64,000 nt of DNA. It comes from Topomyia yanbarensis (Eukaryota > Arthropoda > Insecta > Diptera > Culicidae). The notes beneath the pieces were generated by a model. That model had not been told where the DNA came from and did not search any database. It was given only the letters and a program-made list of their open reading frames with translations. The position numbers and the translations under genes are program-made. The stretch spans positions 73,841,412-73,905,411 of the forward strand of contig NC_080671.1 in assembly GCF_030247195.1 (NCBI RefSeq). Direction: 5' to 3'. Positions 28,693 to 59,752 of the stretch are shown here, piece after piece; positions within the stretch are counted from its first letter, which is position 1; every line of letters starts with the position of its first letter.

Positions 28693-29439
28693 TCACTTTC
28701 CTTCTCTCGGTTCAACAGTCTTGCTCGCATCTTCCGAGGTTTTGTCGTCGTTTTTCTTTGCATCCTTATCTTCGTCACTTTTGAAGAGCAGTGGGCACAT
28801 CCCCAAAAGACAACCGATGGTAATACCGATGACACGTCCCTAATGTAATATAAGCAAAAAGCGTTTTGTAAACGAACAACTTAAACAATGTTCGCTGAGT
28901 GCACCATGTACTCACCATGTTCGCTGCCTGTCGGCTCGATTTTAGTTCGAGCTGTATCGGCGACAACTTCGGCGGTTTAACGCCACTCATTTCCGCTAGC
29001 TTTTCCACGTAGAAAGCTGATCCGATGCCAATCACGTCGCTAATTGTGTTTCCGAGAGCGGCCGCACCCATAGTTGAAATGCACATGAATAGACCAAGCG
29101 AATGTTCGATGTAATCTCCCTGTGGGTGAAAGAATGAAGCGATGGTTAACATTGGCTTATTTACTACTATATGGAACACAGCCCTCTCAAAAGCATCTCA
29201 ATCAATAACCAGAAATTATTTAACCAACCGTGAATTGATATCTTATGGTGGACATTCTCCAAATAAACGAAAGCTATTCGAGTCTGCTGTGATGTCCTTT
29301 CCACAGAAAAATTCATTCAATTTCATTACACAGCATCAAGTTACGGACATATCAATCATTCAGAAACTTACCGCTATAATCATGGTAAAGTTATCCAAAA
29401 ATCCAAATCCAATGAATGGCAGGGCATTTACCAGTCCCA
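28693..29439 (-). CDS. TMEM65: Transmembrane protein 65 homologue, three 3' exons
   Basis: Minus strand exons 29372-29439, 28916-29119 and 28693-28839 (68, 204 and 147 nt), with donors GTAAGT and GTGAGT and acceptors CAG and TAG. They encode GLVNALPFIGFGFLDNFTMI, then IEHSLGLFMCISTMGAAALG, NTISDVIGIGSAFYVEKLAE and GRVIGITIGCLLGMCPLLF, followed by a charged tail ending at the TGA (28693-28695). NALPFIGFGFLDN, the STM.AAALGN block and the last helix followed by acidic residues match TMEM65, a mitochondrial inner-membrane protein linked in vertebrates to ion handling and respiration. About three hydrophobic segments are visible. Exon 29372-29439 begins in phase 1, so upstream exons must exist; one is found at 59459-59500. 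Confidence 0.9.
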
Positions 29440-30040
29440 CTGAAAAGAAAGACGAAAGAGACAGTGTAAGAAAAACAAACTGTTGCAATTACCGGTGCGC
29501 TTCCATACTGTCTATGTCATATTAGCTGCACTTCAGTGAATATTCTTCACCATCTAAAGCGTATACATCTAACTCTGAGAACGTTTGACGTGGAAATTTT
29601 CTCTAACTCAAAATGGAAATAATATTCAACGAAGATTTAATACCCAACGTCTTATGTTGTCGCAATCAGTGGATTCTGATGGTACCACGTAGATAAATAG
29701 TACCGTAGAACCTCGGATAGCAATTTGCATGATGATTTGTTGAATTTATTCGGTGCCGGAATTGAAGCAGTTTCTCTATTCTCTAGCAATATAAAAGATA
29801 TTCATGAGAAGTTGTATGTCTCTAAATACACAACCTCTTGATTGAAGACAAGTCATGGTATGTGTGGACAGACATTAAACTTTGTACAAACAAAGATACA
29901 TTCCACCGTTAAGGGACAACGTGTACACGCCTGATGCAACTGTTAACACATCTTAGTTTAAAAAATCGTACGATGTTTGCTAAAAAACAACACAACGTTG
30001 ACGTTATGCGTTCGTTGTTTTCTATTCACTCTGAGAGGTT

Positions 30041-30520
30041 ATACAGGGTGCCCCACATTAAATTGCATCACAGAAAAAAATGCATAACCGTGAACCAGTG
30101 GATGTTTTCTGTCGAAAAATTAGGTAGAAATAGTTTAGAGTGCATTGTTTATAGTATTTTTTATCGCCATCAGTTTTTCGAAAATCAGACCAAATGGCGT
30201 CACCCGAAAAGCAACGTCGCGAATTGATTTTACGCAAGCACCTGGAAATATCTTAAACTCTCTCACCGGGATATCCGAAAACAACTCGGAATCGTGCAGT
30301 CAACGGTGAGTCGTGTGATTAAACGTTACTGCCAAACTCTGAGCATCGAGCGGAAAGAGAAATGCGGTCAGAACGGATGTTCCATTAGTGATCAGGACCA
30401 CTAGCGTGTAGTGAAAGCGTTTAAGTGGAATCCCAATGCTTCGGTCAGGTATGTGGCCAAAAAGTTGAAACTGTCCAAGTTTTTCGTTCAGAGAGCCAAC
30501 ACGGAAAACCGATTCATCAA
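30041..30520 (+). pseudogene. Tc1/mariner-superfamily (ITmD37E-like) transposase, N-terminal relic
   Basis: Starts with a TA then ACAGGGTGCCCCACATTAAA, which looks like a terminal inverted repeat. An ATG at 30194 opens MASPEKQRRELILRKHLE, and after a frameshift the frame gives LSHRDIRKQLGIVQSTVSRV and WNPNASVRYVAKKLKLSKFF, two helix-turn-helix DNA-binding units. It also has an internal TAG and no catalytic domain, so it is a truncated dead copy. It lies in the large TMEM65 intron. Confidence 0.6.
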
Positions 30521-30773
30521 AATTTCAACTAAAAAAATAGTTGAGTTTTTGGTCTCGTCTATTTAATATTTGGGCGAATTAAATTTTTGTTGAAAACAAT
30601 AATCCAACGCTGTTGGTTTGATGCTGTCAGTTTCAGTCTGGACACGAACGTTTCAGCCTAGCACAAAACTTTAAAAGCCTACCTGAGATAAAGCTTGAAA
30701 CGCTTGCCTCAGCTTGTAACGCTTGTTTTAGTCCAGACACAATTGCATATGCCGTTACACTACCTTTTCAGCC

Positions 30774-30787
30774 AAGACACAAACGAC
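30774..30787 (+). repeat. Left target-site duplication of the I-clade element
   Basis: AAGACACAAACGAC here is repeated exactly at 36961-36974, straight after the poly-A tail. It defines the insertion precisely. Confidence 0.9.
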
Positions 30788-30820
30788 ATTCGTTGTTCGA
30801 CTTGCGCTCGGATAAGACGT
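30787..30820 (+). promoter_or_regulatory. Internal Inr + DPE promoter of the I-clade element
   Basis: CATTC at the very start of the element fits the arthropod initiator (CA+1KTY), with +1 at 30788. AGACGT at 30815-30820 is exactly +28 to +33 and fits the downstream promoter element consensus RGWYVT at every base. TATA-less Inr/DPE promoters are the known mechanism by which I, Jockey and Doc elements carry their promoter inside the transcript. Confidence 0.75.
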
Positions 30821-31091
30821 GTGCTAGTGCTTTTGCAGTTGCCTTCCCCGGCTCAGTTTTTATTGTGTCCAGTGCTCAGTGCAGTGTCAAAGCCAGTTGT
30901 GATTGCTAGGCCTTTGTTTCGAAAACAAAGTGTGTCGTGCTGGTATTGTCAGCCAGTCCCAGCAAAGGTCATCGGCATCGAAAAGATAAGTACCTGTTTC
31001 CCTTCTACTATTATTTTCTGTTTTGCCCTTGATACATTCCGTTACTGCTCTTTTTATCGTTCTTTGCGCGAAGTGCTGATCTCGCGCTAAA

Positions 31092-32429
31092 ATGTCCCTC
31101 GACGGTCAGCCCACCGATGATAATATGGATGATGAAACATCCCCTGATAAGCCTCCTACCAAACCCCCTCGCCTAAAAGCATACCCAGAGAACTCGACTG
31201 GGCCATTTGTGGTTTACTTCCGGACCACCAATAAATCATTTGATATTTTGAAAATATCACGTGATCTGACAGAGCATTACTCGGCCGTGACCCAGATTAC
31301 AAAGGTTCGCGCGAATAAGTTAAAAATTGTTGTTAGCGACCTCGCACAGGCAAACGGGATTGCTTCCTGTACCCGCTTTACGCAGCATTATAGGGTGTAT
31401 GTACCGTGTGTAGATGTAGAGGTCGACGGGGTCATAACCGAGGCGAGTTTGACATGCGAGGACGTGCTGAAGTATGGGGCTGGCTGTTTTAAAAACCCCC
31501 TACTAAAGCCGGTGAAAATATTAGACTGCAAGAAATTGCACACGCTCGCTGGAGATAAAGAATCCTATATACCATCAGCCTCGCTTCGGGTGACTTTCGC
31601 CGGATCGTCTCTTCCAAATTATGTCCTTCTGGATAGGGTTCGCCTGCCTGTACGCCTGTTTGTACCGCGGGTAATGAACTGCAGCAACTGCAAACAGTTG
31701 GGCCACACAGCCACCTTTTGTGGCAATAAAAAACGATGTGGCAAGTGCGGTGGAGAGCATGAGGATGACTCTTGTGACAAAGACACTGAAAAGTGTGTTT
31801 ACTGCGGGGGCCCTCCGCATGCTCTTAAATCATGCCCTGCGTACAAACAGCGCGGGGATAAAATTAAGCGCTCCCTCAAGGAACGCTCGAAGCGCTCTTA
31901 TGCAGAAATGTTAAAGAATGCTTCGCCATCTGTCCTTTCCGAAAACTCCTTTGCTCTTTTGGCTCCTGTTGAGCAAGAATCTGATAATCCACAAGAGGGA
32001 ACATCTTTTGTTAACCCGGGGGAGTCCAGGAAGCGGAGAAATCCTGCCTCCCCTAGACTGCCCCGTAAGGGTCCCAAGGTGTCCTCCTCTGAGAGTGCGC
32101 CAACCACATCTAATAAATCCAACGGAAGTGCTGCACTAATGCCGAAGCAATCTGCTCCTGGATTTGGAAATTTTAATTCAAACAAGGAGTACCCACCACT
32201 TCCAGGGACACCAGAAACCCCAAGTGTCCCTCTTTTTCAAACAGACACTCAGTCCAGTAATGGACTAATGAAATTTTCTGACATCGTGGACTTAATTTTC
32301 ACAGCTTTCAATGTTACCGATCCTCTTAAAAGCCTTCTGATACGTTTTCTCCCTATAGTGCAAACATTTTTGAAGCAGTTGACTACTAAATGGCCCCTCC
32401 TTGCAGCGATCGTATCCTTCGATGGCTAA
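31092..32429 (+). CDS. I-clade ORF1: gag-like RNA-binding protein
   Basis: 445 aa, intact. The N-terminal 40 residues are acidic and Pro-rich; residues about 45-190 form the domain that precedes the knuckles in I/Jockey-type ORF1 proteins. Three zinc knuckles follow: C197-C200-H205-C210, C216-C219-H223-C228 and C235-C238-H243-C248, with spacings CX2CX4HX4C, CX2CX3HX4C and CX2CX4HX4C. The C-terminal 190 residues are Ser/Pro-rich and basic. In the family this protein coats the element RNA. The start ATG has AAA before it. The stop overlaps the ORF2 start as ATGGCTAA, which suggests termination-reinitiation for ORF2. Confidence 0.92.
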   Translation: MSLDGQPTDDNMDDETSPDKPPTKPPRLKAYPENSTGPFVVYFRTTNKSFDILKISRDLTEHYSAVTQITKVRANKLKIVVSDLAQANGIASCTRFTQHYRVYVPCVDVEVDGVITEASLTCEDVLKYGAGCFKNPLLKPVKILDCKKLHTLAGDKESYIPSASLRVTFAGSSLPNYVLLDRVRLPVRLFVPRVMNCSNCKQLGHTATFCGNKKRCGKCGGEHEDDSCDKDTEKCVYCGGPPHALKSCPAYKQRGDKIKRSLKERSKRSYAEMLKNASPSVLSENSFALLAPVEQESDNPQEGTSFVNPGESRKRRNPASPRLPRKGPKVSSSESAPTTSNKSNGSAALMPKQSAPGFGNFNSNKEYPPLPGTPETPSVPLFQTDTQSSNGLMKFSDIVDLIFTAFNVTDPLKSLLIRFLPIVQTFLKQLTTKWPLLAAIVSFDG

Positions 32430-35400
32430 GTCATCGAACGAGGTCACTGATTCGATCACTGTTCTACAGTGGAACAGCAGAAGTATCCTCCCGAAAATTG
32501 ATTCCTTTAAATTTTTACTAAATAGTTTAAAATGTGATGTTTTCGCATTATGTGAAACTTGGTTAACTTCCGATATAAATCTCAACTTCCACGACTTTAA
32601 TATAATTCGTCTGGATCGAGAAAACCCCTATGGAGGAGTACTTTTGGGGATTAAAAAGTGCTATTCTTTCAACCGAATTAACCTCCCTTCGACACCAGGC
32701 ATTGAAGTTGTCGCTTGTGAAATAAGGATCAAAAGCAAATACCTTAGCATTGCTTCCATCTACATTCCCCCTAGAGCGTCGGTAGGGAACCGAACGCTTT
32801 GTAATATCACGGAATTCCTACCGGCACCGCGGCTAGTTCTAGGAGACTTTAACTCGCACGGTACGGTATGGGGTGGTCTTCACGATGATAACAGATCAAC
32901 ATTAATCCAAGATCTTTGCGACAATTTCAACATGACCATCTTAAACACGGGAGAAATGACACGGATTCCTACACCACCAACACGCGCAAGCGCGTTGGAT
33001 TTATCTCTATGCTCGACTTCGCTACAGTTAGATTGCACGTGGAAGGTGATCCCTGATCCCCACGGTAGCGACCATTTGCCTATCGTAATTTCAATTGCCA
33101 ACGGTTCAAGACCATCAGAAACAATCAATGTCTCATATGACCTCACACGGAACATTGATTGGAAGAGTTACGCGACCGCGATATCCGCTAAAATCGAATC
33201 AATTCAAGAACTTCCTCCGGAGGAAGAGTACAGGTTTTTGGCTGGCTTGATTCTCGACAGTGCGAATCAAGCTCAGACTAAACCAGTACCGGGCGAGAAC
33301 ACCCACGGACGATCTCCCACCCTGTGGTGGGACAAAGAGTGCTCAGAACTGTACGCGGAAAAGTCCACTGCGTATAAAACCTTTCGGGACGACGGGTTAC
33401 CCGATAGCTATCGACAGTACGCGTCGCTAGAAAAGCGAATGAAGTGTTTGATGAAAGCCAAGAAACGCAGTTATTGGCGCCGGTTCGTCGACGGGTTAAC
33501 GAGAGAAACAGCGATGAGCACTCTTTGGGGTACGGCTCGACGTATGCGTAACCGAAATAGTATTAACGAGAACGTGGAATATTCAAACCGCTGGATATTC
33601 GCCTTCGCCAAGAAGATCTGTCCAGACTCTGTCCCGGTACAGAAAACATACCACGCCGCGTCTCCTCACGATACCGCGAACGAAACACCGTTTTCGATGG
33701 TGGAGTTCTCACTTGCCCTCTTATCGTGCAACAATAACGCCCCGGGGTTAGACAGAATCAAATTCAACTTGTTGAAGAATCTGCCTGATTCTGCTAAAAG
33801 GCGTTTGCTGAATTTATTTAACAAGTTCCTTGAGGGTAACATTGTTCCTCACGACTGGAGGCAAGTGAAGGTCATCGCCATCGCAAAACCGGGAAAACCA
33901 GCCTCCGACCACAACTCGTACCGACCGATTGCAATGCTTTCCTGTATCCGGAAGTTGTTCGAGAAAATGATCTTGTTTCGCCTCGACAATTGGGTCGAAG
34001 CAAATGGCTTACTGTCAGATACACAATTTGGCTTCCGCAAAGGCAAAGGGACGAACGATTGCCTTGCGTTGCTTTCTACAGAAATCCAAATGGCCTATGC
34101 TAACAAAGAGCAGATGGCATCAGTCTTCTTGGATATTAAGGGGGCTTTTGACTCAGTTTCTATCAATGTTCTTTCAGAGAAGCTGCATCAGCATGGTCTT
34201 TCGCCGATTTTAAATAACTTTTTGCTAAACCTGTTGTCTGAGAAGCATATGCATTTTTCGCATGGCGACTTAACAACATCGCGATTTAGCTACATGGGTC
34301 TTCCCCAGGGCTCATGTCTAAGTCCCCTACTCTACAATTTTTACGTGAATGACATTGACGATTGTCTTGCCAATTCATGCACGCTAAGGCAACTTGCAGA
34401 CGACGGGGTGGTCACTGTTACAGGGCCCAAAGCTGCCGATTTGCAAGAACCATTACAAGATACTTTGGACAATTTGTCTGCTTGGGCTCTTCAGCTGGGT
34501 ATCGAGTTCTCCACGGAGAAAACTGAGCTGGTCGTCTTTTCTAGGAAGCGTGAGCCGGCGCAACTCCAGCTTCTACTCATGGGTGTAACGATCAATCAGG
34601 TCTTCACATTTAAATATCTCGGGGTCTGGTTCGACTCGAAAGGTACCTGGGGATGTCACATTAGGTATCTGAAACAAAAATGCCAACAAAGGATCAATTT
34701 TCTCCGGACAATAACTGGAACATGGTGGGGTGCCCACCCAGGAGACCTAATTAGGTTGTATCAAACAACGATACTGTCGGTAATGGAATACGGATGCTTC
34801 TGCTTTCGCTCCGCGGCGAACATACATTTCATCAAACTCGAAAGAATTCAGTATCGTTGTTTGCGTATCGCCTTAGGGTGCATGCAGTCGACCCATACGA
34901 TGAGTCTCGAAGTGCTGTCGGGCGTTCTCCCGTTGAAAAATCGATTTTGGGAACTCTCATATCGATTGCTCATTCGATGCGATATCTTGAACCCGTTGGT
35001 GATTGAAAACTTCGAAAGACTCGTCGAGCTTAATTCTCAAACCCCTTTTATGTCCTTGTACTTCGACTACATGGCACAGAGCATCAATCCTTCTTCGTAT
35101 AATCCCAACCATGCCCGTTTTCTAGATACTTCTGATTCTACTGTATTCTTCGACACATCCATGAAGGAAGAGATTCGTGGAATACCGGACCATATACTCC
35201 CTCAAGTGATCCCCAATATATTTTATAATAAATTCCGTGAAGTCGACTGTGACAAAATGTTCTACACTGACGGATCGAATCTCGATGGGTCCACTGGCTT
35301 CGGTATCTTCAATAATACTATCACCGCTTCATTCAAGCTCAATGATCCCGCTTCAGTTTACGTCGCAGAATTAGCTGCTATTCAGTACACCCTTGGGATC

Positions 35401-36108
35401 ATCGACACTCTGCCCACAGATCACTACTTCATCATCTCGGACAGCCTCAGCTCTATCGAGGCTCTTCGTGCGATGAAGCCCAAAAAACAATTCCCGTATT
35501 TTCTGGGGAAGATACGGGAGTCCTTGTATACGTTATCTGAAAAATCTTACCAGATTACCTTTGTTTGGGTCCCCTCTCATTGCTCTATCCCGGGCAATGA
35601 AAAGGCCGACTCATTAGCAAAGGTGGGCGCATTAAATGGTGACATATACGAAAGACCAATCTGCTTCAACGAATTTTTTAGTATTTGTCGTCAGAGGACA
35701 CTCAACAGTTGGCAAACCTCATGGAGCAATGGTGAACTTGGACGATGGCTACATTCCATTATCCCGAAGGTATCAACGAAGCCTTGGTTCAGGGGGATGG
35801 ATGTGGGTCGGGATTTTATTCGTGTAATGTCCCGGCTCATGTCTAACCACTACACGTTGCATGCACATTTGCGGCGTATTGGGCTTGCGGAGAGTAGTCT
35901 GTGCGCTTGTGACGAGGGTTATCACGACATCGACCACGTTGTCTGGGTTTGTGCCGAGTATTGTGACGCCAGGTCTCTGTTAAAGGATTCCCTTCGGGCC
36001 CGAGGTAGACCACCCAATGTCCCAGTCCGGGATATGCTAGCAAATCGCGATCTCCCCTATATGTCCCTTATTTACAATTTCATTAAAACGATAAATATCC
36101 CAATTTAG
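32422..36108 (+). CDS. I-clade ORF2: endonuclease / reverse transcriptase / RNase H
   Basis: 1228 aa from the ATG in ATGGCTAA. APE-type endonuclease about 10-235, with N18, E45, D142-N144 and D217-H218 in place. Reverse transcriptase about 480-760, with FLDIKGAFDS, GLPQGSCLSPLLYNF and the catalytic LADDGV (D660-D661; most relatives have YADD or FADD). RNase H with D950 (YTDGS), E983, D1007 (ISDS) and D1063 (GNEKADSLA), a complete D-E-D-D set. The C-terminus has a Cys/His stretch (CACDEGYHDIDHVVWVC). It makes cDNA at nicked target DNA. No stop or frameshift over 3.7 kb. The Leu before ADD is unusual but the two Asp are intact. The 28-nt upstream extension of the frame lacks an ATG, hence the start chosen. 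Confidence 0.93.
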   Translation: MAKSSNEVTDSITVLQWNSRSILPKIDSFKFLLNSLKCDVFALCETWLTSDINLNFHDFNIIRLDRENPYGGVLLGIKKCYSFNRINLPSTPGIEVVACEIRIKSKYLSIASIYIPPRASVGNRTLCNITEFLPAPRLVLGDFNSHGTVWGGLHDDNRSTLIQDLCDNFNMTILNTGEMTRIPTPPTRASALDLSLCSTSLQLDCTWKVIPDPHGSDHLPIVISIANGSRPSETINVSYDLTRNIDWKSYATAISAKIESIQELPPEEEYRFLAGLILDSANQAQTKPVPGENTHGRSPTLWWDKECSELYAEKSTAYKTFRDDGLPDSYRQYASLEKRMKCLMKAKKRSYWRRFVDGLTRETAMSTLWGTARRMRNRNSINENVEYSNRWIFAFAKKICPDSVPVQKTYHAASPHDTANETPFSMVEFSLALLSCNNNAPGLDRIKFNLLKNLPDSAKRRLLNLFNKFLEGNIVPHDWRQVKVIAIAKPGKPASDHNSYRPIAMLSCIRKLFEKMILFRLDNWVEANGLLSDTQFGFRKGKGTNDCLALLSTEIQMAYANKEQMASVFLDIKGAFDSVSINVLSEKLHQHGLSPILNNFLLNLLSEKHMHFSHGDLTTSRFSYMGLPQGSCLSPLLYNFYVNDIDDCLANSCTLRQLADDGVVTVTGPKAADLQEPLQDTLDNLSAWALQLGIEFSTEKTELVVFSRKREPAQLQLLLMGVTINQVFTFKYLGVWFDSKGTWGCHIRYLKQKCQQRINFLRTITGTWWGAHPGDLIRLYQTTILSVMEYGCFCFRSAANIHFIKLERIQYRCLRIALGCMQSTHTMSLEVLSGVLPLKNRFWELSYRLLIRCDILNPLVIENFERLVELNSQTPFMSLYFDYMAQSINPSSYNPNHARFLDTSDSTVFFDTSMKEEIRGIPDHILPQVIPNIFYNKFREVDCDKMFYTDGSNLDGSTGFGIFNNTITASFKLNDPASVYVAELAAIQYTLGIIDTLPTDHYFIISDSLSSIEALRAMKPKKQFPYFLGKIRESLYTLSEKSYQITFVWVPSHCSIPGNEKADSLAKVGALNGDIYERPICFNEFFSICRQRTLNSWQTSWSNGELGRWLHSIIPKVSTKPWFRGMDVGRDFIRVMSRLMSNHYTLHAHLRRIGLAESSLCACDEGYHDIDHVVWVCAEYCDARSLLKDSLRARGRPPNVPVRDMLANRDLPYMSLIYNFIKTINIPI

Positions 36109-36960
36109 CCCCTCTCTTTTATTTCTTGTTTTTAGAAATTTCCTCTTGCTTGTGGAACCGATCAGCTGCAGAGTGCCACTATGTAACCGCCGTCGCCTTT
36201 ACCACTACGCCTGCATAGAAGGAAACTGAAGCGAGAGCGACACGAGGTCCGATGACTTTTTAAGGATTCCCCGCGGGTCCGAATAATACCATCCGCCAAC
36301 CCGGTACTCGACGACTTACTAGACTGAGGCGCAAATTTGTTTCGCTGATCTCCCGTTTGCGCGATAGTTGCAAGTTTTGCTCTTCTTTCCCTGTCACCAT
36401 ATACGTCTTCTCTCCCCTGTCCTCGACACACCTGCTGCTACACTGATGTGGAAATAGGCCCCCCTCTGAAATATCTTGACCAAGCATAAGTCTTCGTTAA
36501 AAAATCAAATTTGATTTCTGTATTCCTAGTTTTAAGATAGCTGTAATTTTTACTCTTTATTGAAACTCTTGTCCTCCATCTTGTAAATAGAATTGTATCC
36601 CTAGTTTTAAGATATCTGTGAAATTTCTCATAAATATTTGTTCCACCTTTTGTTAGTTTTAAGATAACTGTAAAATATTTCGTAAAATACTATTACTCCC
36701 CCTCTTGTATATCAAACTGAATCCCTTGTTTTAAAATTTTTCATAAAAAAATCTTTTGGCCCTCTCTTGTATATTGAATCTTATTTCTAGTCTTAAGATA
36801 GCTGTAAACTTTTTTTTTTTTTTTCTTGTATAAAAAAAATATTTCAACATTGTAACCTCCTAGTTTTAAGATATCCAAAATGTAAAAACAAAAGAATTTG
36901 GCACCGCCAAGCTAACGCATTTGTGCCTATCAAATAAACGAATTGAATAAAAAAAAAAAA

Positions 36961-36974
36961 AAGACACAAACGAC
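36961..36974 (+). repeat. Right target-site duplication of the I-clade element
   Basis: Exact repeat of 30774-30787, directly after the A-tail; the leading AA could also be counted as tail. Confidence 0.9.
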
Positions 36975-37485
36975 TGGAATTCAACTAATCTCATTGTTGA
37001 ATTAAGCTGCTTCATCGTAAAATACAACATAGGATATTTCAAACGTTTTGTTTCACCGACCGACGGATGAAGGTATGGAATTAAGTTGTTGAAATACTCC
37101 GTATTCCAGTAATTCACACGTAAATATAATATAGAGTTGTGTTTCTCATAATGTTATCTTTTTATAAACTGCACTCTTAAATGAGACGAAATAGCCAAAG
37201 GTATTTAAGGATTGTTGGTAATTGATTGATGATTTCAATTTTAGATGAAAGGTATATTTTTTTCTATTTAGTCAGCCAGCACTACAAAAAAAATCATAAT
37301 TATTCCACATATAGTTTGAAATCTCAAAAGATGAAAAATAATTATCATATTGCATATTAAATTTGTAAATAATTGAAATTTTACTATATAATTGACTAAA
37401 TCCGAAATAGAATGAACGAATACAATTTTCAACAATACTTTCAACTTTCAGTATACATTAGAGTGACAGGAAAAAAATGACCCCT

Positions 37486-38528
37486 ATCGGCCCACCCCTG
37501 ATTCGATTCCTAGTCCCACCAGGAGTTCTTGCACCAAATTTGAAGCATATCGGACAAGTCTAGCTACCGGACCAACGTACCTGAAGTTTGTATGAGATTT
37601 TTCGACAATTTACATGGAGAAAACCCACTAATTCGCATTTTTGCCGCTAGGTGGCACTGTATACATCGTATTATCACTGTAAGTGAAAATAAGAAAGATA
37701 ATTTAAGCTGCTAGTGAATCCGGATTTGTTAAAAGAAGTTATTAAATTTTTAGCGAAGTGATGTCTGAGTCAGTTTTACATGGGGCCTAGCAGTGCATGG
37801 TTATGTATCAGTACTCGATTCGCACGAACTAAACATTTTTGTGAAATAACCGTTAGATTTAGCTCAATAGTATGTTCAGAAGAATTGTAGTAAATAATAG
37901 GAGTCATGTTTCGGTTAAAAAAAAATTGGTTCCGCATTGTACCGCATAGAGGGCGCCAACACTAACTTTTCAACGGAGAGAGATAGAAATTAGGTGTCTT
38001 CCACAAAGTTGTAGAGCAGGCATTTTGCAATAATTCTTCCAAACATCTCGATATTCTATCTCTTTTCTTTGAAAAGTTAGTGTTGGTGCCCTCTATGCGG
38101 TTACATGTGGAACTAAAATTTTCCAACCAAAATATAACTCGTATTATGTGGTATAATTCTCTTGAACATACTATTGAGCTAAATCTAACGGTTATTTCAC
38201 AAAGATGTATAGTTCGTGGGAATCGAGTACTGATACTCAACCATGCATTGCTAGGCCCCATGGAAAACTGACTCAGTAGTAGTCTTCGTACAAAGTTGTA
38301 GACAATTAAATTATCTTTCTTATTTTCACTTACAGTGATAATACGATGCATACAGTGCCATCTAGCGGCAAAAATGCGAGTTAGTGGGTTTTCTCCATGT
38401 AAATTGTCTAAAAATCTCATACAAACTTCAGGCACGTTGGTCCGGTAGCTAGACTTGTCCGATTTGCTTCAAATTTGGTGCAAGAACTCCTGGTGGGACT
38501 AGGAATCGAATCAAGGGTGGGCCGATTG
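37486..38528. mobile_element. Giant fold-back element (arms about 480-500 bp)
   Basis: The left half (37486-37990) and right half (38045-38528) are inverted copies with scattered differences: ATCGGCCCACCC at the ends, CTAGTCCCACCAGGAGTTCT, GGAGAAAACCCACTAATTCG, CCGCATAGAGGGCGCCAACA near the middle. The loop is only about 55 bp. The long minus ORF at 37962-38435 is an artefact of the palindrome. No transposase. It fits a fold-back / long-TIR MITE. It sits in the TMEM65 intron. Confidence 0.85.
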
Positions 38529-39844
38529 AGTTTTCAAAATTTCATTATTTTTCTGGGCAGTCTAGTACACATGTATCGAAAAAAATGTCAATCAAAATCA
38601 TCCCTTTATTGAAATGTTTCAAAGAAAAACTAGGTAAAACCAAAATGAGGTCAGTTTCATTTCTGTTTTTTTTGTGTACGGGTTCAGGTAGTTGCGTCCA
38701 GGCTAAAACAAGCTTTCCAAGCTGAGACAACTACCTACGTGCATAACCGTTATGCCCAGCGTGTATGAACATAGTTGCTGTCGCTACCTTGATGTATTTC
38801 AGTAAGGTGTGCATCTTGGCTACTTTGCTGTCATTTCGTATGATGTGCTTCTTGAATCAAAATCAATAATAATTTTCAATAACTATTATTTGAGAATCTC
38901 GCAAAATTTAGAGAAAATTCAGTTATGTTTTTCATTTTTCTGTTGAAATCAACTAATTAGGAAAACAAGAATTTGTTTTATTTTCTTCATCGAATGGTTT
39001 TCAGTGAAGGACCGGGTGGAACTGCATACGTACAAAGTGCAGAAGGCTCCAATTCGCGACAAACGGCAAAATACGGTGGGAAAATCACGAGCCTTAATTC
39101 TGTACACCCAGATGCTGATGATGTGAAACACCCTTCAATGTTACGACAATAGAGCAAAATATTGATTTTCCTAGCTATACTTCCAAACTTTAAAGCATCA
39201 CTTTGAGGTATTTATTGAACGGTATGTACAGAAAAATACTGTATATATAGATTTTCAAATATTAATGAAAGTTTTTTCAAGACCAGCGCAAACGTTGTAT
39301 TAGTGGATAACGTCAAAATAAACTCAAACGGTAGCACATGAAGTGTTGACCCCTAAAGCGAATGTAATGTTTGTTGAAGTTGAAACAAATTTTTTATGTT
39401 ATCTCTAAAGACACACTGCTTATTATAGTGGCCCTGTACATAAGGAATTGAGTAATTGTGCATGCTGAATTTATTGTTGACAAAAAATATAATATCGCGA
39501 CCCATCACGCTGACGGCGGTTCCATATCGTTCTTCATTCTTTCAAGCTCAGACCTCCACCAGGAGGTTCTCCTAGTCGATTTAACAGTGTGAATCGGACA
39601 AGCTTCTTCGTATGAAACTGCTATGAACGAGTTTGTCTAATTCACGTCATCCGAGTCAACTAGTTGACACGCATCAATGGCCTTATTTTCAGGAATGGAT
39701 GCACGAGACATTTCACGTGGATTAGTAGTGTCTGTCTTGTAAGCAATGAAGGCAGTTTTAAGTTACTTTCCAATAGAAGTTTATGAATGAAATAACGAAA
39801 TTTGTCTAAATACTCAATTATGTAGATAAGCGTTTCAAGGCCAT
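38529..39844. other. Intron DNA of TMEM65, nothing recognised
   Basis: No coding signal or clear repeat structure found apart from short AT-rich runs. Confidence 0.35.
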
Positions 39845-40360
39845 ACTTACACGGCTGGCTGTTTAGAGTTCAAATTGCCTTTGTTTAGAAAACATAGGTT
39901 ACTCACGGTAGCCTGCTGCCCAGAGTTAAAAAACTCAAAAACTAAACAAGATCTTTTCTTTATCGAGTGACCGTGTACTCAGACACTAACTAAACAACTA
40001 CATAATAAACTATGCTTTACCGGTCGCATCGCTTGCTTGGAGCGAATCCTTACCCTTGAACCTTCTAAATCTCCAACTCCGCGACACATTTGGAAGAGTC
40101 TGATGAATCGTCGTTCTTTCGTTACGTAGGTGAAGCATCAACACTTTTCTTCTACCCTATTCTTTATCCTTCCCCGTGAACGATATGGACCGATGGAGGT
40201 GGCTGGCAATGGTGGCTATCATACTAAAACCTTTATAATATTAGTCGGATTTCTACTTACCATTTCCTAAGCAACTCTTATTAGATAATCAGCAGTGAAA
40301 CATGATGAAGTCAGTGTGTAAATCGCCAAAATCATCGTCAAAACACAACGTAATGCATTA
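39845..40360 (+). repeat. Dispersed repeat of about 520 bp, copy 2
   Basis: Counterpart of 20745-21320, same orientation, with many substitutions and short indels; shares AAACATGATGAAGTCAGTGT and AATCATCGTC near the right end. Confidence 0.65.
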
Positions 40361-42705: not shown

Positions 42706-42734
42706 ATTGTTTCGAAGATATACAAACTTCTAAT

Positions 42735-47290: not shown

Positions 47291-47313
47291 TTGAAGGGTT
47301 GACGCGGGTGATG

Positions 47314-47968: not shown

Positions 47969-48089
47969 TGATGGTGTGGGTATGGGTGATCTTTGTGTGT
48001 CCTACCGGTAGGCGCGAGAGTGGTCTTTGTTCCCTACGGTTTTCGCGCTCTGTCCACTTCTCAAGATCTCTTTACCTTCTGAGGGTAGC

Positions 48090-49500: not shown

Positions 49501-49732
49501 GAGTGTATTACAAATCTTCACCTTTCAGAGTGCAGGATAATTTTATAGAGATTAGAGCTAAGATTAGAGAGACAGAGGGGATGTATCACCAAAACTGAAC
49601 AAACATTTCTAACAATAGTTTTTGTAACATCATTACTCAAAAATCTGTGTATCTGAATATACATGCAAAAATCGGTTTAAAATTTGTTTTTGCGTAATTT
49701 TCGCCCTAAGCATTATTATAACATGTATTTTA

Positions 49733-50270
49733 CAAAGGATTCCCCGCGGGTCCGAAGAATACCATCCGCCAATCCGACCTACTAGACTGAGGCGCTAATT
49801 GGTTTCGCTGATCTCCTGTTTGTCCGAAAGTTGCAAGTTTTGCTCTTCTCTCCCGGTCACCATCTACGCCTTCTCACCCCTGTCCTTGATACAACTGCTT
49901 CTACACCGATTTTGGAAATAATCCCCCCTCTGAATATCTTGACCAAGCATAAGTCTCCGATAAAAAATCAAATTTGTATTCCGTATTCCTAGTTTTAAGA
50001 TATTTGTAATTTTACCTCTTTGTTAAAACTATTGTCCCCCATCTTGTAAATAGAATTGTATCCCTAGTTTTAAAACATCGGTGAAATTTTTCATAAATAT
50101 TTGTTTCCCCTTTTGTGTACCAAACTATATTGTTAGTTTTAAGATAACTGTAAATATTTCCTAAAAAACTATTACTATTGAATTCCTTGTTTTAAAATTT
50201 TTCATAAAAAATTTTTTTGCCCCCTCTCTTGTATATAGAATCTTATTTCTAGTCTTAAGATAGCTGTAAA
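49733..50270 (+). mobile_element. 3' UTR fragment of an I-clade element
   Basis: Follows 36262-36815 of the full-length element base for base with modest divergence (GGATTCCCCGCGGGTCCGAA, TTGACCAAGCATAAGTC, repeated TAGTTTTAAGATA phrases) and stops before the tail where the palindrome at 50279 begins. Older and both ends lost. Confidence 0.8.
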
Positions 50271-50278
50271 TTTTTTAA

Positions 50279-51413
50279 ATAATCATAGCTATTGCATACT
50301 ATGTTGCGTTTCGGCTTCGCCTCATCAGAAACCGACACTAACACAATGTCGGAATAGATTAGCGCCGGCTTGACGCAAATCCCTTAAAACTAAAACACAC
50401 TATGTGTTTCAATCAAACGACTGATCAAACGTGATGTCCCGTTCGAGCAGAAGTTCTGTTTATGCCGATGAGACACAAGTGAAGCCGAAACTTGTCTTGG
50501 CTTAGCAGGCCTATGCGAAAGCACTATGCTATATTTCACCCTATGGAGGAAAATTTGGTAAAAACCAAAATTTCTCACTAGGGTGAAAATTTGTTGGTAA
50601 AAACCAGTCTTTGTACAGGAGGGCACAAATCCTTATTTCATACTATGTTGCGTTTCGGCTTCGCCTCATCAGAAACCGACACTAACACAATGTCGGAATA
50701 GATTAGCGCCGGCTTGACGCAAATCCCTTAAAACTAAAACACACTATGTGTTTCAATCAAACGACTGATCAAACGTGATGTCCCGTGATGTCGTTTGATT
50801 GAAACACATAGTGTGTTTTAGTTTTAAGGGATTTGCGTCAAGCCGGCGCTAATCTATTCCGACATTGTGTTAGTGTCGGTTTCTGATGAGGCGAAGCCGA
50901 AACGCAACATAGTATGAAATAAGGATTTGTGCCCTCCTGTACAAAGACTGGTTTTTACCAACAAATTTTCACCCTAGTGAGAAATTTTGGTTTTTACCAA
51001 ATTTTCCTCCATAGGGTGAAATATAGCATAGTGCTTTCGCATAGGCCTGCTAAGCCAAGACAAGTTTCGGCTTCACTTGTGTCTCATCGGCATAAACAGA
51101 ACTTCTGCTCGAACGGGACATCACGTTTGATCAGTCGTTTGATTGAAACACATAGTGTGTTTTAGTTTTAAGAGATTTGCGTCAAGCCGGCGCTAATCTA
51201 TTCCGACATTGTGTTAGTGTCGGTTTCTGATGAGGCGAAGCCGAAACGCAACATAGTATGAAATAAGCATTTGTGCCCTCCTGTACAAAGACTGGTTTTT
51301 ACCAACAAATTTTCACCCTAGTGAGAAATTTTGGTTTTTACCAAATTTTCCTCCATAGGGTGAAATATAGCATAGCTATTGCATTTTTTGCAAAATGCAA
51401 TAGCTATGATTAT
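50279..51413. mobile_element. Compound palindromic element with nested inverted and direct copies
   Basis: Ends ATAATCATAGCTATTGCA and its complement. A block of about 145 bp (GTTGCGTTTCGGCTTCGCCT ... AACGTGATGTCCCG) occurs forward at about 50301 and 50644 and inverted at about 50793 and 51123. A second block (ATTTTCCTCCATAGGGTGAA and GGGCACAAATCC) is inverted and partly tripled. The centre is near 50787. Copies are nearly identical, so the rearrangement is young or kept alike by gene conversion. Three identical-looking ORFs (50390-50626 minus, 50929-51165 plus, 51273-51539 plus) are shadows of the repeat. Confidence 0.85.
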
Positions 51414-54400
51414 GCTATGGACCCACTGTGTGTTCAAATCACTCCACACCAGTTAAAAGCCAGTAAAAAGGCATTCGCATATCGAATGTCAGTATTGGAG
51501 CGTCCTATATGGGAAGATGAGGTAAAACGTACTCCCTAGACAAAATGCTTTCTTACTTTTATCAAAATTTCTGGAAAACAGTTGCATCTGAAGGAAGCTC
51601 GTTTTAGTATGTTACATTGCCAAAGTTTCATAATCGTATATCAATCGCAGCCTGGATATAAACAAAACACAATTATGTTCTCTTCCCGTATAATTATTGT
51701 GGCTCGTGTAATACGGATTTTGAATTCAAATAAATGCTGTTTTACCTTACATATCAGTGCATTCCTGTGTTATTTTACCGTTATTCGTTAATCTGACACA
51801 CTGTGTATGAAAATTCTACTGAATAAATAACTTTTTGTTAGATTTATATCTGTACTCCATTGGGGGACAAACACCCTCTTCTTAGTTCTGATTTTATTAC
51901 GGACATCGGGACGAAATCATAAATGGGGACGCTTAACATACGCCTATGATTTATTATTCGACAGGGCTTATATTGCTGAACAGAAGAATAATAAAATTAA
52001 CCATTATGTGTCCGACAGGGTACCCGGGCACCTTTTTAACAAACAGGGTACCCGGGCACCAAGAGTCTAACAAACAAACGAACATAGGAAAAGGTCAGGC
52101 ATCTCTGATTCTTACTTTGTTACTATTGAATTAATTTGCTTCATTGAACATAAGGCACGTACAAGTCCCCAGTGAACAAGCGTAAAACTTCCACGTGTTC
52201 ATACTCCTACAAAAGTCGGATTTGAGTGCCAAACCGTACGAGACACCATACCTCAATCTCAGTTTCGCAGAAAACTGTCAGTGCAAGCAAAAGAAAGTTT
52301 TACATCTCATGATGTTAGTACAGTACACGCTTCAAACAGAGCAAAAGCAGTCAATTTAAATTTATGCCGGGATAATGTGCCTTCTTTATCAACCACAGGA
52401 AGACAAAAGAAAGGGTGTTTGTGATTTGTTGTACAGCAAAAAATACATAGATAAAATATGAAAATTGCCGTTAAAGTCGGCATTATCTTTAAAATGAAAC
52501 CTAACTTATGGTTAGAAAAACTTTCACGGAACAAGTTTTTGTTGCTCATCAGTGCAAACTCAGCAAGTTATAGTCACGACTATGAAAATAATCGGAAACA
52601 TAGAACAGCAAACAATCTCGATTATCACAAGTACCACTTGCTACATCCTGATGCAACAAACTTCGTCCTGCGGCGGTGCTTCAAAGATTGTGTGCGGACG
52701 ACGAAAAATAATGTCACATTTGTTGTTGATGTTTTCGTGTTGCTTTTTATTTGAAAACTTCTGCGATACTGTGGATGTGTCGCACAAATTAGCTTCCATA
52801 AATGCACTAACTCTTTACTCCCCGCTTAAGTGCATTGACCTTAAAAAGGATATTACGTTATCCACTTTTAGACAACAAATTTATTGTTGCATTAAATAGA
52901 GTAAAGAGCCTATTTTGGTACTATTAGGAAGTGCATGCTGAATAATTTCATTATTTACGCTGCCTACAATCGATGAAATGCGTATACATTTGAAATACTC
53001 CTATTTGGACGTTCGTTTGAAAACTTGAATAGAATTTCCCAATTATTGCACTGTAATTTGAGTCATGCGTTGGACAAACATGGCAGATGCTACTCTAACT
53101 AACGGCTTCAAATGGGTAGGATGATAATAGAAGCAAGCTTTGCTCTCCACAGAGTTTTCGCACGAGTACAGTTTAATTTCAAAGCTTCTAAATGGTTCAA
53201 AAATACTTTATTCACGCCCATTATACTTCTGGAAATAATGACTTGGAATGTTATTTATTAATTTAAATCATCTTTATTCATTGCTTAATATCATTAGTTT
53301 TACTCATAAATGTCAAACATATTTAAGAGTTTTTGGTTACACAAGGCAAATACGAAGGTGTACCAGCGCAAATTCGATGTCGGATAAAAATGTTAACAGC
53401 GGTGAATGAATGAATAATCAATACTTACAACTTTACTCGACAGCATAAAAGTTCGGCAGTTCAATAAACCACTTTACAGGTTAACACTCTTCACCCATTT
53501 TCCGATTCTCACTGACATCATCTTAGTAATAATACTCAAATGCAGTAACGATAATCGTCATCCCCGGCATATAACTACTCAATATAGCACGTATATCGTA
53601 CCGCCTTTCATGTGCTATCTTGTTTCAATTGAATTTTAAATTCCAACGCATAAACAACTACAACTACATTAGGTATGGATTGCTCTTTTGTTATTTTTTC
53701 GATGAGTGATTCATACATCAGAAATAAGTATAGAGGAATTGGAATAAACCATAATCAAGACATTGTTTTTTTCTTGATAGAGAAACGTGCCTCTATAAAC
53801 GTGGAATAACTTTAGTTCCTAAAATCATATTGGAAGTTGGCACAAGAAAGCGGTAAAATGACGACCATGCCGTCATCAGTCGTTCATCTCGCCTCGTCAT
53901 CCACTTTAGTATTCCATTTATCGAGATCGGAATTTAATTTTCCTTTTCTCGATAAAACCACGATCTTATGTGCATGTGAATGAATGCTTATGCTCCGTTG
54001 ATTTGGCTGTATGCGAAGGATTATAGAAATTGAAATAATATGAGATGTATGTCGAACGGATACTTCAGCTGCATATTTTCCCATCGTTTAGCACTGGTTT
54101 AAGTCACGAGTTAACATTATACCAGTTTGTAGAGTAAGAAACGCAAATATGTTCCGAGATGGAATATTTGTTTGCATAGCGTTGTTTTCATATTTCATAA
54201 AAGGTGTGTGCGATGGTATGCAGTAGATCGCTGAATGACTCTTAGGCAACACATATGACCAAAATTGCCAATCTATACTGAAAGTTGTCCAACTAGATGC
54301 ACTATCCTGGGTATTTACAAGAGCTCTAGAATTATGCTACGAGGAGACGTAAAAACGGTGTTAAAAACACTATTTGTGTGAAATTACACGAATTTTAACT

Positions 54401-54439
54401 TTATCAAGTTATAGTATTGATATTTACACAATTTTTTTA
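51414..54439. other. Intron DNA of TMEM65, mostly unrecognised
   Basis: At 52014-52061 ACAGGGTACCCGGGCACC is present twice as a direct repeat 12 bp apart. Short ORFs at 52450-52900 overlap on both strands without recognisable motifs. No spliced gene found. Confidence 0.35.
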
Positions 54440-54685
54440 AGAAGAAATATAGCATGGTGCATATCACATTGGTTTGGTAAGCCGAACCAAGTTTCGATTT
54501 CGCTGTATTTCATTGGAATATCAGAACTTTTGCTCTAATAAGACATAGCATTTGACTAATCATTTCCATAAGAATACAAATTTTGTTTCCGTCTTGGGCC
54601 AAGCGTCAATCCGGCGTTAAATTAAATCGGATTCAAGTTAGTGTCGGATTCTGATGAAACGAAGTCGAAATGCAAACCATTACTT
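54440..54685. repeat. Another diverged unit of the 50.3-kb palindrome family
   Basis: AAATATAGCATGGTGCATAT, AAGCCGAACCAAGTTTCGAT, AAGCGTCAATCCGGCGTTAA, TTAGTGTCGGATTCTGATGA, AACGAAGTCGAAATGCAAAC follow the order of one arm of 50279-51413 with many substitutions. Confidence 0.65.
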
Positions 54686-54944
54686 TATTAAGAATAGTCA
54701 AGCTTTATAGGAAGTAATGTAATTGAATAATACTGATTGCATAATCGCATTTTTAACACGCACTTCTGTCATCTCCATTTTCACTAACCCGGCCCGTAAA
54801 AGTAACTTTCCAAAAACTAGAATCACTGTTCGAGTTTGTAAACCGATAATCCCACAGCCCTTTGAAATACACCTATAATCTGATCATCTCTTATAAAGCC
54901 AATCCATTATGCCATTCCACCGTCGTACCCAATGTCTAATAAAT

Positions 54945-55052
54945 CGTTGACCAGCCCGATAATCAAGTTACCTTTCCATTCGACAGTAACAAAATTAAAC
55001 ATTATATTAAATTTTGTTACTACCCAATGGGAAGGTAACCTATTTATCCGGC
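54945..55052. repeat. Hairpin element of about 105 bp
   Basis: GACCAGCCCGATAATCAAGTTACC...AGTAACAAAATT faces AATTTTGTTACT...GGTAACCTATTTATCCGGCTGGT around a loop of about 12 bp. It makes the plus ORF 54932-55198 and the minus ORF 54907-55203 mirror images, so neither is a gene. Confidence 0.7.
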
Positions 55053-55689
55053 TGGTAAAAAGCGATGCTACTTTCGTCGATTTTAGCGATATTCCTGCCA
55101 CCCCAACATTAAATAATAAAACCTTCTCGATTGGTAACATGCTCGATATTTTCATTCCAATTTTAAAGACGATAAAAGTTATTTTCGTGCAATTATAGCT
55201 CAAAACGGTGAAACCTAACCGTGGTATTATTTGTTCGTTTTACGATTTGCACCCCGTAGTGAAGACATGCTTTATAGTTTTCCTCAGTTACAACCAATCA
55301 AATATTTATCAAACTATATTCGCGAGCAGTAATAGGGGAGAATCGCTTAAAAGGTTAGTTGCGGTTGCATCACGAGGTTAAGGGGCTCAACAGTTCGTCA
55401 GCTAAAAAGAAAGACTGGCGAAATTTTATTTTTCCTTTCCATGGTCCTGTCATGAGAAAGTGGAAATCAGCGCAGCAAGCATCCCGGATTATTCGCTATT
55501 TCGCTTACTATTTGGATGATGATGGTCTTTCCATAAGATGAAACTAAGATACTTGCACGGAAAAAAAGTTCCCAAAATCGTGAATAAAGTTCAATAAATT
55601 CTGGAATAATCACGTTCCAGACAGGACCATGCACAAAACTCATGTGTCTTATAACTATGTTCAATTTCAATGTTTCAATTTACGCCTGC

Positions 55690-57105
55690 GTAAAGCTTTT
55701 AATATTAGAGATATCTGTTAATGTTTTATGAATTGCAGCCACGGTTTCCGCCATGTCATTACCAAATTGATTTTCAGTACGTGAACTAGTTCACACCTTT
55801 ATGGACTTTATTCATAAAACCAAAGGTTGACTCACGATTTTATTCATAGATTTAGGAACATTATTCAGAGTCTGATTATATGAATTTGTTCACCAAATCG
55901 AAACATGGTTTCTCGTGAACTATTTCACGGACCTCAGAATATTATTCATGAATCCTTTCAATTTTCGTGAACTGGTTCATGATTTCTAATATATTAGCCA
56001 CGATTCAACATCTGTGCTCGTGAAATGGTCGATAAAATCATAACATATTATTACATGAATTCGTGAACTAGTTCATGATTCCAAGTACATGATACACGAT
56101 CTATCTGGAGGTATCCTTTATCATTTTCAATTTCATGCAATTCTGCACCTGGTCATGCCATTTTCACGTAAACTATTTCACAAAATTTGGATTTTTCATG
56201 AATTATCATAGAGCTATGTATATCCAGCTGCAAACGACTAGTAATAGGAGCGAATAGAAAATATAAGAAAACTATTTTGACCTCGTACATTGTTATTCGT
56301 TTGATGTCCGGACATAAAACTGCACCAAAAACACATTACAGAGCCACAAATCGTGGTCGTTCATAAAACGAGATACCGCGAGCCAGCCACACTTTTATGA
56401 TCCAGTTCTTATCGCCACGTTACTACGAGTAAAAAACCGATAGAAATTAAAAATAGCATATCACAATAAGAGGAAGAGAACCTGCGAATATCGTGATCAA
56501 ACTACTGATACAATAAACGTGGGTTACATGGATGTCAAACTCGAAAATGAGCTCAAGGAGAAAGTATCACGATAACGTGTATACATAAATCACCCTACTC
56601 GTGACCAAAATATCAAAAAATCGTGACTAAGATCCTGAAATAATGAGCATAAATCACGACTTGTGACCAAAATATCACAATAACGTGAATAGAAATTACG
56701 AAAATCGTGACATGAAATCATGAACATAAACTACACTACTGTGTCAGAAAAATTGGACACGAAACTCGTAAATAAAATGTCACGATATAGTGAATACAAA
56801 TTAAGAAAAACGTGACAAAGTTTCTGAAATCATGAGCATCGTTTAACTGTCCATTCTTTAGTTCATATAATTTATACAAACCAGTTTATCCCCAAATTAT
56901 GAACAAGAATCAAAACGAAAACTAAACATGCTCAGAGAACAACCCAGCCAAACATTGAAATGAAACGCTATGTATATTTTTCGCGTTAAGAACACAAATA
57001 GTTTCATGAACACAAGCTTTATTATACATAATTTCAGCAACTTGGCCATGATTTTTGAAAATCGTTCATATATCGATATCGTGATTTTTTCATGAATTTC
57101 TCGGC
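55690..57105. repeat. TCGTGA / TTCATGA-rich degenerate repeat tract
   Basis: The left half repeats words such as CGTGAACTAGTTCATGATTT and TTATTCATGAAT; the right half repeats the complement sense (AAATCGTGA, AAATCACGAC, ATCACGATAACGTGAATA). The tract as a whole is a long degenerate inverted repeat or decayed satellite. No coding signal. Confidence 0.5.
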
Positions 57106-57177
57106 GGTTTTCAAGGGGCTGATAAAAACGGGTTTTCTCTGTAGTGCACTAGGTCATGAAATAAAAAAAATGTTGGG

Positions 57178-57690
57178 GGAGGGGGAGTGGGGCAATTCGG
57201 ACCGCTTACGAATTCGGACCCCCAGCTGTTTCTCAGCTATGGTAATATTATGAAAACCGTATATATCATTTTCATGGCTGTCATGTAGCTGTGTTCTGTC
57301 TTACAAAATATTGCGGTTCTCAGTTTTCGTGTGCGCTAGGAGCGAATGTTACTTCCGGTTAATATCTTTTATTTATATCCTGTTTTGGCCGAGACTATCC
57401 ATTATTACTTGGGCCAAAATAGTAATTCATTTCTATTGCAAGAAATCGAAAAGAAATTGGTGGTCCGAATTGGAACAGGGTTGGGGTAATTCGGACCTTT
57501 CATATACTTTTGCACACAACCGTTCATACACAATACGGTAAAAGATCGGAAAAAGTCGCTTTAGAAAAAAATGTGCTCAATTGATCAGGTTTTTAGGAAA
57601 AAAATATTTATTTGTGATTCGGTTGACACGTTTCAGTTCTATAGCTCATAAACCCTTACTAGGTCTGAATTGGCCCAGTTTCCCCTATTA
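57178..57690. mobile_element. Non-autonomous element with GGGGCAATTCGGACC ends
   Basis: The left GGGGGAGTGGGGCAATTCGG faces a right end reading AATAGGGGAAACTGGGCCAA and TTCAGACC on the other strand. AATTCGGACC is repeated inside (about 57191, 57210 and 57490) with GTCCGAATTGG in between. A pogo-type end (GGGCTGATAAAAACGGGTTT, about 57116-57145) lies just to the left. Confidence 0.5.
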
Positions 57691-59458
57691 TTGATTCGAC
57701 TAAATTTTTTTTTCATTTAAGTGCTATTTGCAGCCATTACGATAAAATCATGATGATGAAATGGACATGAGAAATATTTTTTTTAAATTTTGGATATTAG
57801 TTTTTTTTAATCAAACTTTAAGATTCACATGAGTCTAGTGGCCAAATGGATATCTAAATGAAGGTCCCATTTGAACCTGTTTTTACAGTCTAATTCCCCG
57901 AAAATATGCTACATTTGCATGTAATTCATGCATCTGCGAATTTTTGTAAGAAAAGTGGAATGTTTTTAATAAATCACACTTTACTGATGTGATGGGGAAT
58001 GATTGCAAATCCTACTTGAAGGGAAAACGAATTTCAACCGAATCAATTGTAATTTCTTTATTTCACTATCTAGTGCACCATTCAGATATTCAGAAAACTT
58101 GTTTATGTAAATGTAAAGAATCGTTTCTTAGAACGTTTCAACTCAGTTGAAACTCAAGGGAAAAAATATAAAGTAAAACAATTGTTTTGAATTTTTCCGC
58201 GATAAATTTTTCAATAAAAAAAAGAAGACACTTAGTTTTTTCAGCAAAGTATTTGGAATGATATTTCATAAAACTTTGCCGATCCTGAATGTGAACATAT
58301 TGAAAAAGTAGGTTTTAGATCTCACTAATAAGTGAAATAATTACACCAGTTTCCAAATTTTGGGGTGATTTCATGAAGTTAAGAAAAAAGCTGTTTTAAA
58401 GTCAATCGGTATTTTGAAAACATGGTTTTCATAAAATGGGCTTTAAAGGAAAAAAATCAAATTAAGGAAAACTTACATGCATGAGATGTTAATCGGCTAT
58501 AGTCTGTAATTTTTCTAGAATATTCTCTGATAATTATTCCAGCGATTGAAGCAAAAAAATCGATTCTTTGAAACTGACTGATGAGGACCTCCTTTAGCAA
58601 ACTACTCTAAGATTACTCGATATACAATTTTACTAAAGAAGGTATGGCTCGATCTAGCACGATTTAAAACGTTTATTTTCTGATCTTAGTCTTCCGGCTG
58701 TCACGCTAGTGCACTGAGTGCACGCTGCTTTGAAAATCTAGCGAAATTGTCTTAGGGCACCAGCGGGTGCTCGTCCAGTGAGACATTGGTGCGACTTCCG
58801 GAGGGTTAAAGAAGAAACTCCAAAGAAAATTAAAATTAATATGTTTATTTTAATTAAAAGGTTAAAATTTTTGCTAAATTTGCATTCTGGCCCACAATAT
58901 CATTGCACTCCGAAATCATGGTTTGTGGGTAAAGGAGTTAGATGTTCCCTTATCGGTATCGGGTGATCTGAGAAAGAATTATATGAAGAATATATAAATA
59001 GATATCCAATTTAAAAAAAAAGTATCACCGGAATTTATACATATTCACATTATTGTGATATGTTATGTTAACAGATCAGCACTCCAAATATCATAGAAAT
59101 GGAGCGTAATTTGAAGATTCGATTATGCGAGCCTCGTAGAAAAATGTGTCCTACGTCTAGTTAGTATTTTATTTGATTTTTTTGTATTTTTTCGATAGAC
59201 ATTTTTAGTGTATAATTGCTTATTATATGTAACGTTCCAAGGCAATTCACAACCTAAGAAAACAACGTACAAAATTCAGCCTGCATCGATCGTCTGACAA
59301 ACACTGTTTCGGATTTCCTTAACATATTAAAAATTGCTACTCAAACTCATTACTCATATAAAACACACACAATGTTCCTTCTATACAAGTCAAAAATACA
59401 TAACGGTCACGTTCCAGTTAATTAAATGAACAATCTGTTTTGAGCGTTCAATACTCAC
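57691..59458. other. Intron DNA of TMEM65, nothing recognised
   Basis: AT-rich; no repeat with clear ends and no coding signal seen. Confidence 0.35.
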
Positions 59459-59500
59459 ATTGAAACAAGTCCCTCGGCGGTGGAGTTGGAACGGCTTCCG
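59459..59500 (-). CDS. TMEM65: TMEM65 upstream micro-exon (42 nt)
   Basis: Minus strand, acceptor after a TTTTTTTCC...CCCCC tract and GTGCAG, donor GTGAGT. It encodes EAVPTPPPRDLFQ with 2 nt before and 1 nt after. The trailing T joins the TG that opens exon 29372-29439 to give Leu, making DLFQLGLVNALPFIGFGF. Vertebrate TMEM65 also has a Pro/Thr-rich stretch and a short helix just before its NA-PF-GFGFLDN block, so position, phase and content all fit. The intron between would be 30,019 bp and contains most of the mobile DNA in this window. Confidence 0.8.
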
Positions 59501-59714
59501 CTGCACGATGCGTAGTAGTTGGGGGAAAAAGGAAAAAAATAATGAAAGCAGGATTAGATGATTTTCACATTTCGCACTCACGTTTCACCCGTTTTGTCTT
59601 GATGTTAGGTGGTGGCTGAGTATCGTTTATGCATGCAATTAGCGAGCAATTATTGTTAGTTTTTGAAAGCACAACAAAGTAATTTCATACTGTAGCGATT
59701 AAAGGAGAACATAC

Positions 59715-59752
59715 CTGCGGGATCGGCACAACAACTAATTTCGTGCACAGTT
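59715..59752 (-). CDS. TMEM65: Candidate further TMEM65 micro-exon (38 nt)
   Basis: Minus strand, acceptor ATTTTTTTAG, donor GTATGT. In the frame that fits the next exon it reads TVHEISCCADPA and ends with one nucleotide, which joins the CG of exon 59459-59500 to make Ala. Phase and splice sites agree and the intron would be 214 nt, but the peptide has no clear counterpart I can recall, so this is tentative. Confidence 0.4.

Follow-up and report, generated by a model that had tools for sequence, protein, structure and literature searches.

Can a 42-nt exon and a cluster of three exons lying 30 kb away belong to a single gene, when the intervening intron is full of transposons? The question was raised by a 64,000-nucleotide stretch of DNA (termed the window; C2:73841412-73905411, on a 470-Mb contig) from Topomyia yanbarensis, a mosquito of the tribe Sabethini. 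Here, a sequence-only reading had proposed that the gene for transmembrane protein 65 (TMEM65) is split by a ∼30-kb intron, with three 3' exons on one side and, on the other, a 42-nt micro-exon and a possible second micro-exon of 38 nt. We are highly confident that the locus is an ordinary nuclear TMEM65 gene with six coding exons, in which a 30-kb intron grown by transposons separates exon 3 (the 42-nt exon) from exon 4, to which it is spliced.

We looked into the coding potential of the proposed exon 3-exon 4 join by a protein search with the joined peptide, and the top match was isoform X3 of transmembrane protein 65 from T. yanbarensis itself (100% identity over the full query). Three isoforms are listed for this species, namely, X1 (P0121, 336 aa), X2 (P0150, 293 aa), and X3 (P0001). 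Using the window plus 200 kb upstream, we placed the exons of X1 and X2 letter for letter on the genome, the mapping covering coding exons (window coordinates and minus strand for all exons):

98382-97962, minus strand: exon 1, 421 nt, beyond the window (exact mapping)
83224-83096 (C2:73924507-73924635), minus strand: exon 2, 129 nt, in X1 only among X1 and X2, beyond the window (exact mapping)
59500-59459, minus strand: exon 3, 42 nt, phase 1-1, encoding EAVPTPPPRDLFQ with a split codon at either end (identical in P0121, P0150, and P0001)
29440-59458, minus strand: intron 3, 30,019 nt, GT..AG, starting with GTGAGT and ending with TTTCAG
29439-29372, minus strand: exon 4, 68 nt (exact match in all three listed isoforms)
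29119-28916, minus strand: exon 5, 204 nt (exact match, and Pfam TMEM65 matched in the genome search)
28839-28693, minus strand: exon 6 with the stop codon, 147 nt (exact match in all three listed isoforms)

Joined in this order, exons 1 to 6 translate to P0121; omission of exon 2, which is the difference between X1 and X2, gives the X2 join, and the pieces mapped for X3 (see below) give P0001. Exons 2 and 3 are each frame-keeping (phase 1-1). Introns 1 to 5 measure 14,737, 23,595, 30,019, 252, and 76 nt, respectively, and the coding span reaches ∼69.7 kb, because exons 1 and 2 sit upstream, beyond the window. A genome profile search with the TMEM65 family (PF10507) yielded at least one match above the cut-off among the 5 candidates scored, and this match was exon 5; as whole proteins, P0121 and P0001 scored 148.8 and 150 bits against a cut-off of 25. 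Most of what had been read from the sequence was therein borne out: the three 3' exons (28693-29439), the 42-nt exon (59459-59500) with its AG and GT sites and its phase, the leucine codon split as T + TG at the exon 3-exon 4 join, and an intron of the expected length between them. The structure agrees with the public models and does not look unusual for a large mosquito genome.

We then evaluated the presence of exon 3 in 230 different proteins, obtained from two overlapping sets of homologues (the best 120 of 776 and the best 120 of 569 matches). Exon 3 has 13 whole codons; in alignments to P0121, 204 of the proteins covered at least 11 of these, 17 covered 3 to 10, and 9 covered 2 or fewer; five of these 9 proteins begin downstream of exon 3, and many of the 17 look by eye to be non-insect or differently started. 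An earlier rule, based on a sequence pattern and applied to the same 230 proteins, counted the segment as present in 193 and skipped in 4, with 6 cases of another kind and 27 lacking an anchor. Both rules are rough, as two proteins without the segment were filed as included, P0073 by the pattern rule and P0011 by the alignment rule. Exon 3 looks mostly constitutive, because it is found in all three Topomyia isoforms and is covered in 204 of the 230 listed homologues. P0122, a 276-aa protein on a 940-nt contig and close to P0151 of Aedes albopictus, contains the exon 3 segment and most likely represents a spliced transcript, since genomic DNA carrying introns of this kind would not be so compact. 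The T. yanbarensis transcripts probably exist as modelled.

The second micro-exon, of 38 nt at 59715-59752, fared differently. The sequence-only reading joined it directly to the 42-nt exon, and it does have a consensus-like acceptor and donor and is open in the required phase. We found it in none of the three listed Topomyia isoforms in the proposed phase; its donor serves X3 in another frame, and the peptide that it would encode is, by eye, unlike the sequences preceding exon 3 in the listed homologues. X3 maps exactly to the following two pieces, joined to exons 3 to 6:

59852-59715, minus strand: first coding stretch of X3, containing the 38-nt candidate and sharing its donor at 59715, in another frame (mapping of P0001)
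59615-59582, minus strand: X3-specific exon, 34 nt (the joined pieces reproduce P0001)

A simple consensus rule for exon-like segments of 20 to 60 nt, run on both strands of the window and on 10 Markov-sampled sequences, also placed the 38-nt candidate in unremarkable company. It is one of 11 segments at 6 acceptors on the minus strand (6 of the 11 on a single acceptor), against a Markov mean of 5.3, and the plus strand had 5. The true 42-nt exon is not among the 11, because its pyrimidine tract is placed away from the AG. At this locus, splice consensus alone is a poor guide, and homology is a better one. We rejected 59752-59715 as an exon in the proposed form, and a direct join to the 42-nt exon is very hard to believe.

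The exact placement of X3 raises another reading, in which a second promoter in intron 2 would produce a TMEM65 without the mitochondrial targeting N terminus, destined for another membrane. By eye, the N terminus of X3 is indeed swapped for a long hydrophobic stretch. X3 is a database model only, however, and its residues 1 to 60 matched no other protein at an E value of ≤10 (12 candidates); we regard this second promoter as quite improbable.

We then turned to the protein and to the part of it contributed by exons 2 and 3. Exon 3 encodes a Pro-rich linker immediately ahead of the first conserved membrane segment of this mitochondrial inner-membrane protein. In a low-confidence AlphaFold model of P0121 (25 sequences; mean predicted local distance difference test score of 54.8), a helix predicted to run from residue 192 starts inside the exon 3 segment, and a sequence search for solved TMEM65 structures retrieved none at an E value of ≤0.01. 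The Topomyia protein is like the TMEM65 family (PF10507) in that its N-terminal region, linker, and membrane core follow the order seen in most of the 24 aligned sequences, whereas many listed insect forms have an extra, optional segment of 43 aa. This segment (WRSRFGRP..VDPTGSYC..PEDWL) is encoded by exon 2, is present in many listed insect TMEM65 proteins, and, to our knowledge, is absent from vertebrate TMEM65.

An alternative to a mostly constitutive exon 3 is that regulation of the SRRM/eMIC type acts on exons 2 (129 nt) and 3 (42 nt) as frame-keeping cassettes, by which linker length would be set according to cell type, perhaps in neurons. In favor of this, exon 2 is what distinguishes X1 from X2, and the acceptors of the two exons share a design. 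The exon 2 acceptor has a UGC at -5, an AG-free zone of 87 nt, and CTAAT at -64 and -33, and the exon 3 acceptor has a UGC at -5, an AG-free zone of 77 nt, and CTAAT at -57; the exon 3 donor reads AAT/GTGAGT. The acceptors of exons 4, 5, and 6 do not follow this design: their AG-free zones measure 41, 37, and 41 nt, respectively, and their last 15 nt contain no UGC. Among 3602 sense-strand AGs of the gene, 4 have a UGC directly before them and an AG gap of at least 75 nt, and two of these 4 belong to the exon 2 and exon 3 acceptors. The chance of such an overlap, 1.4e-5, overstates the case, because the pattern was chosen after the sites had been seen and because real acceptors tend toward long AG-free zones. 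With all six acceptors, the contrast is 2/2 versus 0/4 (one-sided Fisher test, 0.067), and with exons 4 to 6 only, it is 2/2 versus 0/3 (0.1). A long AG-free zone, of 75 nt and with CTAAC/CTAAT, likewise precedes the 34-nt exon of X3, whose acceptor has no UGC closer than -18. The shared splice-site design of exons 2 and 3 is suggestive only.

According to the available text of PMC8797185, fly eMIC exons have a UGC near the 3' splice site, a long AG exclusion zone, and a CUAAY motif; they also lie between short introns, their splice sites are weak, and they show little conservation elsewhere among holometabolous insects. TMEM65 exon 3 resembles the Drosophila eMIC microexons (Srrm234) in the UGC, the AG exclusion zone, the CUAAY motif, and in being a short exon that keeps the frame. 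It differs from them in its flanking introns, of 23,595 and 30,019 nt, and in being mostly included in the listed proteins and conserved across the homologues listed from several insect orders. The word TMEM65 does not occur in the main text of PMC8797185, our literature search found no paper in which TMEM65 and microexon appear together, and the titles and abstract openings of the papers listed for TMEM65 with Drosophila or with alternative splicing and isoforms held nothing on splicing in insects.

Skipping of exon 3 in other species would also favor regulated cassettes. Five of the 230 listed proteins have the N-terminal region without the exon 3 segment (three from Anopheles, one from Glossina, and one from the moth Eumeta), the gap relative to the other listed Anopheles and Glossina sequences being 14 residues, or 42 nt. 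Four of them, P0006 (An. minimus), P0175 (An. merus X3), P0183 (An. atroparvus), and P0011 (Glossina fuscipes X3), also lack the exon 2 cassette and carry the E/V join that joining of exon 1 to exon 4 would yield, and the fifth, P0073 from Eumeta, lacks the exon 3 segment and has the exon 2 cassette. These models may be annotation misses, and exon 3 is skipped in 0 of the 3 listed Topomyia isoforms. Weighing both sides, we consider it unlikely, though a lead, that exons 2 and 3 are regulated cassettes of this type.

The join to exon 4 spans intron 3, which had been described as carrying most of the mobile DNA of the window. In number of bases this is weakly supported, as intron 3 makes up 46.9% of the window length and holds 53.5% of its repeat-covered bases. 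Repeats covered 17.1% of intron 1, 33.0% of intron 2, and 30.8% of intron 3; the figure was 23.7% for the downstream and 29.0% for the upstream sequence, and it ranged from 17.7% to 39.5% in overlapping 30-kb stretches (median, 27.3%). All of these values are lower bounds, because the comparison used only a small local sample of 264 kb. The repeat density of intron 3 is unexceptional and near the local median, and we set aside a special transposon load. The best-defined features of the intron are as follows:

30788-36960, plus strand: long interspersed nuclear element (LINE; a retrotransposon without long terminal repeats), full length, 6,173 bp, antisense to TMEM65, with a poly-A tail
31080-32429 and 32383-36108, plus strand: open frames of the LINE
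30774-30787, plus strand: target-site duplication, 5' copy, 14 bp
36961-36974, plus strand: target-site duplication, 3' copy
50290-51265, no strand assigned: inverted repeat, 476-nt arms, 100% complementary, 24-nt spacer
37486-38526: second inverted pair, 221 nt, 97%

The size of the target-site duplication is given as 12 to 14 bp, as, at the 3' copy, the first two A's of the 5' copy cannot be separated from the poly-A tail. The second frame of the LINE has Pfam matches to an endonuclease, a reverse transcriptase, and RNase H, and the first frame has no Pfam match. Features of an autonomous LINE are present (endonuclease and reverse transcriptase in an open second frame, target-site duplication, and 3' tail), and the element is probably young. 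It resembles retrotransposons of this class with endonuclease, reverse transcriptase, and RNase H in its two open frames, poly-A tail, and target-site duplication and differs from them in the first frame; we take it to be I-group-like, an assignment by domain order only. Both inverted repeats may be foldback elements or, alternatively, an effect of assembly. Of the other open frames tested, neither the four in intron 3 nor the two on its right side matched Pfam. Intron 3 has probably been enlarged by transposon insertions, one of them the LINE, in which open frames and target-site duplication persist, and its length would be due to a large, repeat-rich genome.

Some points weigh against an ordinary TMEM65 gene with a transposon-grown intron. 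The X isoforms of Topomyia are, by naming custom, presumably database models from the same genome and do not count as independent support, and the 264-kb comparison misses low-copy elements.

Intron 3 had also been taken to make splicing of a conserved mitochondrial gene depend on long-range exon recognition. This inference is generic, because introns 1 to 3 are all long (14.7, 23.6, and 30.0 kb), the repeat density is near the local median, and a search for recursive splice sites (YAGGTRAG) in intron 3 gave 0 matches, where 30 Markov samples averaged 1.0. Recursive splicing within intron 3 was set aside on the same count. Taken as a whole, the observation made from the sequence alone was partly confirmed, and the interpretation attached to it was partly supported.

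Downstream of TMEM65, three further open frames had domain matches:

3601-4266, plus strand: open frame of 222 aa, Clp protease (PF00574, E value of 1.7e-77), which we take to be mitochondrial ClpP
17223-18746, plus strand: open frame with a reverse transcriptase match
15508-16041, minus strand: open frame with a reverse transcriptase match

Some culicine genomes are up to fivefold larger through transposons and other repeats, as stated in the available text of PMC10809549, and the TMEM65 intron fits these known transposon-swollen genomes. Mammalian TMEM65 has been reported as a mitochondrial Na+/Ca2+ exchanger (available text of PMC13254257). We offer as a speculative and rather improbable proposal that linker length in mosquito TMEM65 is set by two adjacent, frame-keeping cassettes (129 and 42 nt) marked by a UGC and a long AG-free zone, which would provide cell type-specific control of mitochondrial calcium efflux. 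Were the code shared by these two acceptors indeed regulatory, microexon splicing would be tied to the export of calcium from mitochondria.

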